Positions 3,996 to 8,800 of a stretch of 24,168 bases of DNA are shown in pieces. Every line of letters begins with the position of its first letter. The first letter of the stretch is position 1. The stretch lies in the IMG/VR virus record IMGVR_UViG_3300031952_000136, positions 1-24,168 of that record. One strand, 5' to 3'. Under the pieces are notes generated by a model. That model saw only the letters and a list, made by a program, of their open reading frames with translations. It ran no database searches and was not told the DNA's origin. A program made the position numbers and the translations under genes. Origin of the DNA: a virus.

Positions 3996-4406
3996 TCATA
4001 AAATTTTAATCATTTCATTAATATACACATCTCCTTTTATATATCCAAGTTCTTTATATGTATCAATAAGTCTCTTGTGCTTTATAAGTGCATATGCGTA
4101 TTTTCCACCTAAATTTTTGCTTACTATACCCAATGTATCAATAAGAAGTGTTATTGCTTCCTTTCTTTTTGGTTTAACTCTGTATTCTTTATTTGATATA
4201 ATCCAATCTATCCAAACTGCTTTTGAGTTTGTAACGTACATAAATCCTGCACATATTGGAGTCTCTTCATCAAATACAATTATACCACCTTCCCCATTAT
4301 CAGGAAGGAAGTCTTTCAATGGTGCTTCCCAATTCCAATCCTTCCACCATCCTAAAAGAATGTTGTCGTAATCGGTATCGTTTAATTTTCTTACAATTAA
4401 GTCCAT
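3996..4406 (-). CDS. GNAT-fold acetyltransferase-like protein, 136 aa
   Basis: The order of elements suits the GNAT fold: an N-terminal strand (MDLIVRKLNDTDYDNI), a central hairpin (GIIVFDEETPICAGFMYV, 41-58), the core strand (AVWIDWIIS, 63-71), a helix after basic residues (RVKPKRKEA, 76-84), and a C-terminal HKRLIDTYKELGY (110-122), typical of the last GNAT helix and strand. The usual CoA pyrophosphate loop (R/Q-x-x-G-x-G/A) is not present; its place holds the basic RVKPKRKEA. It may bind CoA differently or have lost catalysis. The length is normal for a single GNAT domain. It opens the ejection-protein group after a promoter-like TATATTTGTA, suggesting a role with the virion proteins that follow. 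The substrate is unknown. Confidence 0.6.
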   Translation of the reverse strand: MDLIVRKLNDTDYDNILLGWWKDWNWEAPLKDFLPDNGEGGIIVFDEETPICAGFMYVTNSKAVWIDWIISNKEYRVKPKRKEAITLLIDTLGIVSKNLGGKYAYALIKHKRLIDTYKELGYIKGDVYINEMIKIL

Positions 4407-4429: not shown

Positions 4430-5242
4430 TTAAGGGAAACTTTTCATAACATCAGATGCTAAGGTAAATAACTCTATTTTACTTGACGAGCCATTGGTAA
4501 TATCAAACACGCAATAGTGTCCTAATACTCCGTGTGACTCTGCCACTGAGTTTTTCACAAAGAAGAAGTAATTGTCATTGGCAGCAATAGGAACAGTTCC
4601 CGGAGGAGAGGTATCTACAACCATTTGGTTTATTCCTGCAGGATAATTTTTTATTATATTCTGAACTAATCCTGCAAATTTAGGTATAGTAGCAGGAGGT
4701 ATAGTAAAATATACACTATCTCCAATACTTATTATACCACCCATATCTATAAGTGGGGATATAGAGAAGTCCACATCAGTACCACCTGTAACTAATATGC
4801 TTCTTCCTATACCATTCAAACTACGTAGTGCAAACTGCCCATTAGAATCGTTTCTTATAAAAGCAAAGTAAGATGCTTCTTTCTTTTCAAACCAACTTGA
4901 TTGTATAAATCCTGAGTACTGAAGGTCAGTTTCAAATGTCATTGACCAAGTGGCATCGCCCTGTATATTTATAGTCTTAAATAATTTATTTTCAAGAGCA
5001 ACGTCATTAAACACACTTACTAATCTCGTAGAGATAAATGGTCCGGGAGAAGGGATAGGCGGAAACTTTGCCCACCACTGCTCATAGAATGTATTGCGAG
5101 AGTTATTTACATTGTGTTTGTAAAGGTCACCGCCTTTAAATGTGTATAGGTAGTTGTTCATTCCTATAATCCAATCAGGATGATAAGAGTAGAATGACAC
5201 CCAACCGTCTACTGTTTCACTATATGTTAAAGTATTTGCCAT
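4430..5242 (-). CDS. Tail protein with hub-type module, 270 aa
   Basis: Residues 13-31 (GWVSFYSYHPDWIIGMNNY), then YTFKGGDLYKHN (33-44) and RNTFY (49-53), form a module I associate with the C-terminal part of the large tail stabilization/hub proteins of crAss-like and related phages. A second conserved-looking block, around W99 to R130 (TDLQYSGFIQ...SYFAFIR), is also of that type. The rest is beta-rich. Here the module is a free-standing gene, separated from the hub gene by the 189-residue Cys-rich gene. It probably joins the tail hub and may carry or contact fibres; the link is inferred from motif memory and position. The start ATG at 5242 is 9 bp after the Cys-rich gene. Confidence 0.6.
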   Translation of the reverse strand: MANTLTYSETVDGWVSFYSYHPDWIIGMNNYLYTFKGGDLYKHNVNNSRNTFYEQWWAKFPPIPSPGPFISTRLVSVFNDVALENKLFKTINIQGDATWSMTFETDLQYSGFIQSSWFEKKEASYFAFIRNDSNGQFALRSLNGIGRSILVTGGTDVDFSISPLIDMGGIISIGDSVYFTIPPATIPKFAGLVQNIIKNYPAGINQMVVDTSPPGTVPIAANDNYFFFVKNSVAESHGVLGHYCVFDITNGSSSKIELFTLASDVMKSFP

Positions 5243-5251
5243 AATCTTTTA

Positions 5252-5821
5252 TTAATCACACGAACAATTTAAAAATTCTAAATGACCATTCCCTGCTGTA
5301 ATAATTGGTGTCGTTCCGGGAAGAATACAAAAGTTACTTTCAAATGCAACAAAAGATACCGTTGATTCTACACCTGCACAATCTGTATATGCTATAGTAG
5401 CACTTGGAACACCACCTTCAGGAACCCACTTCCAAGTATTACAAGTTGAATCAACGCAACATCCACAATATATTGTATTTACAACAGTTACATCTCCACC
5501 AAGAATAATAGGAGTCGTTCCTCTAACTGCACAAATTTGGACTATATCGCCTATTTTTAATTTAAGGTCTATTATAAGACCTGAGCCACATTCAATATAT
5601 GTAACATCTCCATCTGTTATAAATGTAATCTCCCATCCTGCACAATTATCAGTACAACAAGCAGGGCAAACCTGCTCAGGAAGTAATATACAATCTACCT
5701 GCTCCCTTGATATTATACCATCAGAATAGAACCCGTCTGCTGCACATATCGATAGTGCTGAATCATCAAATACTGCTGTTGCAGTAGCAAACGATATGTC
5801 ATTAATGTAAAACGCTGCCAT
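5252..5821 (-). CDS. Cys-rich repeat tail-associated protein, 189 aa
   Basis: Sixteen cysteines in 189 residues is exceptional for this window. The N-terminal part (about 7-56) has the pattern FATATAVFDDSALSICAADG...FYSDG..SREQ and ends in CPACC, a type I recall from Bacteroidota phage tail genes. Two repeats follow, residues 60-122 and 127-188, each with C-x2-W, then Y-x2-C-x-G, an isolated Cys, GTTPII and a closing C-x-C. The same unit ends the adjacent 1550-residue hub. There is no signal peptide or membrane segment. An extracellular, disulfide-bonded or metal-binding adhesive decoration of the tail is a fair guess, but no function is established. The gene lies 15 bp after the hub stop and its ATG follows an A/T-rich leader. 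Confidence 0.6.
   Translation of the reverse strand: MAAFYINDISFATATAVFDDSALSICAADGFYSDGIISREQVDCILLPEQVCPACCTDNCAGWEITFITDGDVTYIECGSGLIIDLKLKIGDIVQICAVRGTTPIILGGDVTVVNTIYCGCCVDSTCNTWKWVPEGGVPSATIAYTDCAGVESTVSFVAFESNFCILPGTTPIITAGNGHLEFLNCSCD
5258..5443 (-). repeat. Cys-rich module, copy 2 of small tail protein
   Basis: Residues 127-188 of the 189-residue protein. It aligns with residues 60-122 through C-x2-W, AYTDCAG against TYIECGS, an isolated Cys, the identical GTTPII and a terminal C-x-C. Confidence 0.7.
5456..5644 (-). repeat. Cys-rich module, copy 1 of small tail protein
   Basis: Residues 60-122 of the 189-residue protein: CAGW, TYIECGSG, ICAVRGTTPII, then CGCC. It pairs with the copy at 5258-5443 and with the hub C-terminus at 5840-6070. 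Confidence 0.7.
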
Positions 5822-5836
5822 ATATTTTTATTTAAT

Positions 5837-8800
5837 TTATTCAGGACAAATATTATCAACACACTCAGCACCTTGCGTTATTGTTACACCAACAGTTGGC
5901 TCAACACTTCTTGCACAAATGTCTGTAGTAGCAGTTAAGAAAATAACCTCAGTTGCTCCATTACAATTAACATAAGTAACATTAATTGAAGACTCGCCTA
6001 ATGTTAACGTAAAGCAATAACACGGTAGGCAGTCACAACAAGCAGCAACAATATTATCTACATTGTAACACAAATCAATAGGTGTCGATACCCTCATATC
6101 CCAAATAAGATATAAATTTTGTCCGCTTGTAGCAGGAGGAACGATGAAGTCTGCATAGTATACAGATGGCCCACCGCTAATAGGCGTAGCAAGACTTGAC
6201 AATGACAACATAGTATTTAAGGCTGCAGATGTATTACTATATCCTACAGTGCTTCTAAGGTATCTAAACTTATCTGTTAAAGGGTCAAAGTTTTTGTCGT
6301 CAAATCCACTCTTATTTGTTTGCAATCTCATAGTACTTCCTCCCGGAGGGAAACTACCTGTACCTGCATATCCTAATGTGATATTATACCTTGACACAAG
6401 AGGATTAGATGTGCCACTTGCAAATATTACTAAACTTGATTGTAGTGGCCCAACAAATGTTCCACTTGTATATCTGTACTCAACGTGAATCATATCTCCT
6501 GCATCTGAGTTCTTAGAAAGAACAATCTCATAAACAAACAACTCTTCAGGAGTAGGGCAATTTACATTTATATCAAGAACTACGTCTCCTGTATATGTGA
6601 TTACAATAGTTGCAGTTTCTACATAGTTTACACCTTTCTCAAAAGTCATTGAATCACTATAGTCAACAAGGCCTGAATCAGTTGTAGTTCCATTAAATGT
6701 AACTGCTACATTAAATTCTGCTCCCGGTTCTATACTAATTACGTTCCAACTTATTATGGTTTCTCCAACAGGTACACCGAGATTTACACAATACTCAAAT
6801 GTCTTCTCGACTTCTCCAAGAATTGACAATGTAAGCACTTGTGATGTACCACAAGCAATACAAGATGGATTGTTTGGAAGTTCCCTTTCTGTACTTGACA
6901 ATACGTACTCGTTCATATATGGGTCATATCCACCAAGTTTCTGATAGTTGAAGGTTGCATTGAAGTCATCTCTAAACCAAGTTCTCATACCTTGTTCAGA
7001 TATAATCTTAATTTGGTCATTAGAATATGAATCACCTTGTAGTTGGATTACTGAGCCACGTTTAGCATCAGTAAAGAACCTATTTGCCCCCCACTGAACA
7101 TAACTCTCGGGATTGAAACTTATACCATACTTCTCAGTACGAGCAATCTGCGTACCCAACACCTCAGGAACTGAGGTAAGTGCACCACCTGCTGCTGCAT
7201 CAGAAAGAAGGTTCTTACCTGCTAATACGTATGATATCTTATCTTCTTGAAGAACAAGCACATCAGTTTGCCTTCCGTCCATCATATATATTTCTCCAAA
7301 TGAAACCTCTAAATGCTTGTAGTCCAACAATCCTAAGTTAAACTCGTTTAGTTTATTTACATTAGACTCAGTATTGTATATACCACTATAAGTAATATCA
7401 GCAAATCTATCGGCTTCTTTATAGTCTTGAGCGGCTACAACTGTAACCCTATTACCTAAATTGAATGGTTTGCCTGTAAGCGAATCTCTAATCTTGTAAC
7501 TCTCTACACCATTTCCAAATGCAAAGCAGTTAAAGAATCCTGTGTTTATTATTGCAGGAGTTCCTAATGCAATATTTTGATTCTGCACATTACCATAATG
7601 GTCTCCTGTGGCTTGGTCTATTTCGAATGACAATTCATTTTCAAAGAATATATCAGGCAAAGAATCTTGTGGTTGTGTTTCAAATACCAATAAATTATTT
7701 GCAAGTTGAACAGTCATTGATGTAATAACTGATGACCTTCTTGCTTGAGGGTTAGGCCATCCCGGACACCTTTGAGTACCTCTAAGCATCAATACAAGTT
7801 GACCATCCCCACCACCAACAATAGGATACCTATAGAATCTATAGTAGTTAGTAGTAAGAGATTGAGATATAGATGTAGAAGTAGGTGCAATAGTAGGGTC
7901 ATAACTATTATTTATAGGAGGACCTCCTCCTCCTACATCTGAAATGCCACTATTTACAGTAGAGCCTATATTATCCCCATTCCACCAATTAAACATATTA
8001 CTATAATTAGCAGAAGCAATATATTGTTTATCTAAAGTATATATTCTTCTTTCACAAGCACCTCCGCCACTTCTTGGGCCTAAGCGTTGAAACTTTATAC
8101 TTATTTTTATTATACTTCCTGCAGGAACTGCATAGTCAAGATACTGACCCGGATTTGCAGGGTCTTCCTGATTCATAGGATACCTTTGTAAAACAAAGTC
8201 TCCCGGAGTATTCTCGTCAGTTTGTATCGTACCGGGAACAATGGTTGCATTAGGGTCTTCAACTGCTGCAAAACTATTTGCATTTATTTTCATATAAGCA
8301 CCTGCAGGAACAAAAGTGCCTGACGTTGGTGTTATAAATGATGATGACTTGCCTTCTTTCTCAAGAACGGTAGCATAAACACAATCAGGTGTTGGGCCGT
8401 TGGTGTCTGCCTTTACAATCAATCTATCTCCCTTCTCAACTTTAAATGAGTTCTCACCATCAAGTAAGAAATAACTTAGATTAGTATTAGGGTCTCTAAA
8501 AAATAAGTTACAATAAATTGTCTCATAATTCTCTTGGTCAGGTTTGATTACAAACTTATATCGTGTTGCCCAAGAAGGAGCAATCTGCGTAGGTGGTATT
8601 GTTACAAAAATCTGATTTTGTGTATCAGAATCTCCACAAGCTACAAACTCTGTATTATTTGGACTTACCAATGCAGTTGACGCTCTATTAAATTCATCCA
8701 TATACACAATACCAATCTCATACCCTCTATTACTATGAAGACTTTTGGGATTACCTATCTCTTGAAATGTAACAGTTGCATCTGTAATTTGGTAAAATTC

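Follow-up and report, generated by a model that had tools for sequence, protein, structure and literature searches.

Few phages are as abundant as the crassviruses and their relatives. The crassvirus muzzle is a hexamer that closes the tail, with a seven-bladed propeller and, mid-chain, a crass fold and IG domains. We know of no split and no nested cassette in the T7-type nozzle (gp12). The muzzle propeller and its ring-joining domains resemble this nozzle; in the muzzle of crAss001, i.e., gp44, the IG2/crass insertion extends to about residue 1021, beyond which the chain rejoins the propeller, and insertions into the crass and IG2 regions are the only reported source of length variation among crassvirus muzzles (PMC10172136). 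Tentaclins are DGR-targeted phage adhesins in which a conserved virion-anchoring domain is combined with variable binding domains on beta-sandwich beads (PMC10743442).

We analyzed a window of 24,168 nucleotides, i.e., positions 1 to 24,168 of the IMG/VR virus record IMGVR_UViG_3300031952_000136, in which a first-pass annotation had noticed a small Cys-rich protein of 189 residues next to a tail gene that it called a hub. This neighbor is better described as the N part of a crassvirus-type muzzle (muzN), the other half of which (muzC) lies beyond the small gene. The crAss_MUZ match of muzN covers profile positions 4–206, and a profile of the muzC family aligns to residues 1201–1284 of the 1371 residues of crAss001 gp44 (hhalign, E 3e-7); a profile of muzN residues ~964–1198 gives no alignment to gp44. 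Since the 1550-aa ORF is the N part of a muzzle and muzC is its C part, the small gene, hereafter the gap gene, interrupts a split muzzle. Sequence comparison places the cut near gp44 residue 1200, where the chains of both phi38:1 and crAss001 are continuous; in phi38:1 and the elemo phages, the equivalent of muzN and muzC is one chain. Given that the gp44 insertion ends at about residue 1021, the cut in the window muzzle would fall either in the late part of the propeller or immediately ahead of the C-terminal domain.

The window resembles the crassvirus muzzle (crAss001 gp44; crAss_MUZ, crAss_MUZ_C) in that its N- and C-terminal profiles both score above the curated cut-offs and in that the genome order is equal, a link to crassviruses drawn from comparison of the muzzle genes only. 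However, the window muzzle consists of two chains rather than one, carries a third gene in the cut, and ends its first chain with a Cys unit (Table 1). Cellulophaga phage phi13:2 (gp120/gp121), a crassvirus outgroup, has its muzzle split at the same place, with gp121 being 30% identical to muzC, whereas it has no gene in the gap, only 9 Cys, and a cadherin-like domain (Big_9, 2e-20) where the window has its Cys unit. Podoviridae sp. ctfjg026 (MW202828, a circular record from Manatee Spring) shares with the window the split muzzle, a gap gene (183 aa), and a Cys unit at the muzN end. However, the two gap genes have only their first ~56 residues in common (the anchor, 47–48% identical), and that of MW202828, annotated as a putative glycosidase, continues into an unrelated, Cys-poor head. 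The muzzle itself is already known; we have not found a description of the variant in which it is split and an exchangeable gene lies within the cut. Searches of the open-licence literature for a split muzzle, a Cys-rich phage tail, or a hypervariable crassvirus tail returned no description of the arrangement in the window, which is weak evidence of novelty. A muzzle can be a two-chain part with a nested accessory gene.

Table 1. Features of the muzzle locus, in window coordinates
Feature	Position	Strand	Evidence
Exchangeable Cys-rich gap gene in the muzzle cut, 189 aa	5252..5821	-	ORF at the equivalent place in 79/80 close relatives; dN/dS <1 in relatives
Muzzle N part (muzN), 1550 aa	5837..10489	-	Pfam crAss_MUZ E 1.4e-8, 33.8 bits, cut-off 27; phrog_14478 virion structural protein 3.8e-203
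Muzzle C part (muzC), separate gene, 270 aa	4430..5242	-	Pfam crAss_MUZ_C 6e-10, 39.9 bits, cut-off 27
Anchor domain, residues 1-56 of the 189-aa protein	5654..5821	-	Profile match in 81/81 genes at the equivalent place; adjoins the muzzle in anchor-only scans
Codon of anchor Cys26 (putative partner Cys44)	5744..5746	-	Both Cys in 46 anchors, neither in 60, one alone in 0; at least 10 state changes on the muzC tree
Codon of anchor Cys44 (putative partner Cys26)	5690..5692	-	Co-variation with Cys26
Cys unit 1 (U1), residues 60-121 of the 189-aa protein	5459..5644	-	Profile matches; six predicted strands, 60-115
Cys unit 2 (U2), residues 127-188 of the 189-aa protein	5258..5443	-	Profile matches; six predicted strands, 128-185
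Cys unit 3 (U3), muzN C-terminus, residues ~1487-1550	5840..6031	-	Held-out profile match 16.6 bits; AlphaFold pLDDT 91.9, equal strand order
LCY-x9-CCxC motif at the end of the muzN core, with Cys 1474, 1484, 1485, 1487	6029..6073	-	Kept in nearly all relatives, including those without a Cys unit
Extra muzN region after strand GGYDPYMNEYVLS, ending YLIWD	6074..6895	-	Alignment and muzzle sequence comparison; absent from phi38:1 and elemo

At least 526 relatives were recovered when viral contigs (IMG/VR) were scanned with the muzC alignment; the group is a large one of uncultured phages from aquatic sources, related to the crAss viruses. Among the best 80 of these, which were kept, the muzzle is split in every one, and an intervening Cys-rich ORF of 122–634 aa is present in 79, in most cases with only a few bases to either neighbor. 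The gap gene of the relatives has dN/dS below 1, showing that it is coding and constrained. These relatives were found with alignment queries; when the 189-aa protein alone served as the query, viral contigs gave no matches, and neither Pfam nor PHROG holds a family for this protein at useful E-values. A profile of the anchor, i.e., of residues 1 to ~56, matches all 81 of the 81 gap genes and also 20 muzN C-termini. Because this profile was trained on the same gene set that it matches, the anchor-only scans carry more weight as an independent test. In such a scan, muzN was directly upstream of the anchor in 80 of 80 viral loci and muzC directly downstream in 70 of them, most of the rest stopping at a contig end. 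An earlier anchor-only scan of viral contigs gave an equivalent picture, with the loci at the split muzzle; the scan sets overlap and hold fairly close relatives, so that they say nothing on very distant anchors.

Many of the longer gap genes carry a second, diverged copy of the anchor near residues 245–310, and only this internal copy can be present in L040, the gap gene of which is truncated at its 5′ end. Another locus, L041, is without a separate gap gene, and its anchor is fused together with a further domain to the end of muzN (1758 aa). The first-pass annotation had proposed a search for the Cys-rich module in Bacteroidota surface proteins as well. A module common to such proteins was not supported by a scan of ~85,000 species genomes, with the anchor rather than the Cys unit as the query, which found one place only (L154; CP070801.1, 546884–565048), a phage fragment. 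L154 lies near runs of N in a MAG labeled Aenigmatarchaeota, probably a chimeric chromosome, and carries muzC and a gap gene that belong to this group of phages.

Beyond the anchor, the gap genes carry interchangeable heads. The Cys unit occurs in about 11 small genes and 30 muzzle C-termini, with up to five tandem copies (L085), and the Fib_succ_major domain represents another head type. The gap genes of L026 (5098–6984) and L072 (5113–6984) have a C-terminal stretch of 315 residues with Fib_succ_major in which 311/315 residues are identical, and their anchors differ by 16%. In 16 locus pairs with flanks at least 88% identical, the identity breaks inside the gap gene and resumes near its stop. 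The breaks cluster at residues 56–59, i.e., the end of the anchor, and at residues 305–312, i.e., the end of the second anchor-like copy, and, except in one deletion series (L116), no more than 14 nt separate the stop codon from the point where identity returns. For example, L008 and L011 have flanks that are 98–99% identical and heads that are 23% identical, with the break at residue 56 and identity back 5 nt after the stop; between L031 and L038, dS rises from 0.05 in the neighboring genes to 0.66 only in the C-terminal part, i.e., the head. Point-by-point diversifying selection was not seen in the heads, the dN/dS of which is below 1. The pattern of breaks shows replacement by recombination, rather than local hypermutation, as the source of head variation.

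A DGR origin of the head variation was considered and rejected. No reverse transcriptase was detected in any of 25 records (many about 60 kb and possibly incomplete; positive controls were detected), which argues against a DGR. Tentaclins work like the gap gene in that a conserved anchor is joined to a variable part. However, their C-type lectin head is N-terminal, their anchor C-terminal, and their diversification driven by a retroelement, whereas the gap gene has an N-terminal anchor and varies by recombination.

The wholesale replacement of the heads fits a role in host recognition, i.e., binding to a receptor or surface glycan. We hold it moderately probable that the 189-aa gene is an exchangeable tail-tip adhesin cassette anchored on a split, two-chain muzzle and stapled by Cys26–Cys44, with its heads swapped by recombination and a third unit placed on muzN. 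The three genes between positions 4430 and 10489 encode a two-chain crassvirus-type muzzle (muzN and muzC) and, from the cut, what would be an accessory tail-tip protein of the virion. The N-terminal anchor of ~56 residues, with its predicted disulfide staple, would dock on the muzzle, as suggested by gene linkage only. The C-terminal part would be the exchangeable head, consisting in the window of two beta units of ~60 residues with about two disulfides each, and such heads are replaced wholesale by recombination between relatives. As muzN ends in a third unit, the units borne by the anchor and by the muzzle are probably neighbors at the tail tip. Contact with the host cell is probably made by the heads, which may bind a receptor there; the muzzle tip of crAss001 is thought to contact the cell (PMC10172136). 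A protein that is swapped at the tail tip between near-identical genomes is a probable host-range determinant, and the locus pairs provide natural paired variants.

Alternatively, the Cys-rich protein may be a structural staple that locks the two muzzle chains through disulfides or a strand swap and has no role in host recognition. Such a staple would suit a gene lying exactly between both chains, the conserved LCY-CCxC motif at the muzN end, and an anchor that occurs only with split muzzles in these scans. However, conservation over the whole length would be expected of it, whereas only the first ~56 residues are kept and the rest is replaced by other modules, and the muzzle of phi13:2 is split without any gene in the gap. 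Since everything past the anchor is replaceable, a pure staple becomes less likely, and we consider it rather unlikely. It is possible that the anchor alone acts as a clamp, or that it both clamps and carries.

The adhesin-cassette reading includes the Cys units themselves, which the first-pass annotation had described as one module in three copies across two adjacent tail genes. Three such units are present, all on the minus strand, with two in the 189-aa protein (U1 and U2) and one at the C-terminus of muzN (U3). The Cys density is far above that of the other genes, as had been noted: the 189-aa protein has 16 Cys (8.5%), whereas the other proteins of the window average 0.53% (muzN tail excluded). 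U1 and U2 are similar in shuffle tests (p = 0.0005; p = 0.003 with the Cys positions held fixed), and U3 is weak in single pairs (U1–U3, p = 0.03; U2–U3, p = 0.07). A profile built only from the small-gene units of other phages scored 16.6 bits on U3, compared with 10.5 for the best of 2000 tail shuffles. A profile built only from the muzzle units of other phages matched U1 and U2 at about 1e-11 and gave 7.9 bits for U3, which is not above shuffles (best shuffle 10.9). Because U3 is recovered by the small-unit profile and U1 and U2 by the muzzle-unit profile, the unit is truly common to both genes, with 0–2 copies in the small gene and 0–5 at the muzzle C-terminus across relatives, and U3 appears to be a diverged copy of it.

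The unit has four near-invariant Cys (0.95–1.0, with one shifted position counted) and a fifth Cys in 83%. The motif Y-x2-C-x-G, by which the three copies had been recognized, is exact in U2 (YTDCAG) and U3 (YVNCNG), whereas U1 (YIECGSG) has one residue more. The closing Cys pairs, also listed as a shared mark, require a correction at muzN: the pair just before U3 belongs to LCY-x9-CCxC, and since this motif (LCY-x(n)-CCxC) is kept in nearly all relatives even without the unit, it is separate from the Cys unit. L050, L060, and L083 have two tandem copies of LCY-x(n)-CCxC at the muzN C-terminus.

Structure prediction with AlphaFold gave a model of the 189-aa protein (9 sequences; mean pLDDT 78) with the anchor and two six-stranded units, and a model of U3 (36 units; pLDDT 91.9, pTM 0.75). 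In the comparison of folds proposed by the first-pass annotation, the models of U1, U2, and U3 have equal strand order and Cys at matching places, i.e., before strand 1, after strand 2, in strand 4, and after the last strand; the outcome favors the reading of one module, though this comparison is not fully independent because the U3 model was built from an alignment of all units. Fold comparison against the PDB returned only weak and mutually unrelated beta proteins (Z < 5, best 4.9 for TRAP), so that no known binding fold was matched for the head type of the window. TRAP ranks near the top for both the 189-aa and the U3 models (Z 3.8–4.9); that both pick equal weak entries supports a common fold, but one with no known family. 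By sequence, no solved relatives were found for the small protein, the units, the anchor, or the muzzle pieces.

Disulfide and metal stabilization had both been named as possible for the cysteines, and for the anchor the evidence favors a disulfide. Among 106 non-redundant anchors, 46 have Cys at both columns 29 and 47 (Cys26 and Cys44 of the window), 60 have Cys at neither, and none has a single one. A tree of muzC, which is a separate gene, implies at least 10 changes of this state, and on its supported branches 7 of 7 independent pairs are concordant (p = 0.016). That the two Cys are gained and lost only together fits a disulfide and supports a Cys26–Cys44 bond in the anchor, which is a specific and directly checkable prediction. 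For the units, the four near-invariant Cys suggest two disulfides in each. It is unlikely that the cysteines instead bind metal in a zinc-knuckle-like manner (CPxCC, CCxC): the linker clusters CPACC-x3-C and CCxC-x2-C resemble metal sites by eye and may themselves bind metal, but the CPxC motif is retained where Cys26 and Cys44 vary, strictly as a pair, and the tails of crAss001 are stabilized, and its tail proteins joined, by disulfides (PMC10172136).

A gene this small, variable, and exchangeable, with lengths of 122–634 aa, might also be a moron or an anti-competition factor, e.g., a superinfection-blocking or polysaccharide-binding decoration, for which the muzzle locus is simply a convenient insertion site. 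However, its fixed position in 79 of 80 relatives, the modules that it has in common with the muzzle C-terminus, and the gaps of only a few bases in most of them suggest one functional unit together with the muzzle, and we regard a moron as quite improbable. An artefactual split and gap gene (frameshift, assembly error, intron, or intein), of which the oddly broken muzzle of Maribacter phage Panino could be a reminder, is refuted by 79 other contigs and the circular record MW202828, all of which are arranged alike, and by the coding constraint in the gap gene.

The reading of the gap gene as an adhesin cassette can be taken further, though we put this forward tentatively. The muzzle cut may be a locus dedicated to switching tropism in a large clade of aquatic, crassvirus-related phages. 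An exchangeable adhesin, docked beside the ejection gate by its disulfide-stapled anchor, would bring receptor contact and gate opening into one assembly, and the Cys unit may be a small beta fold, not described before, that serves as beads on both parts.

Several minor observations concern the muzzle genes and their surroundings. In Panino (L006, 5777–9690), the muzzle is broken elsewhere, into 947 and 321 aa with 110 nt between them; candidate readings are a sequencing error, an intron, or another split. In L101 (8613–10013) and phrog_38031, muzC has an extra N-terminal part of about 200 residues. In the window, muzC is followed by an ORF of 136 aa (3996–4406, minus strand; phrog_17252) with a weak acetyltransferase match. 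The gene after muzC is also found in MW202828, where it is annotated as an N-acetyltransferase, and in phi13:2 and phi38:1, where it is annotated as a "structural protein".
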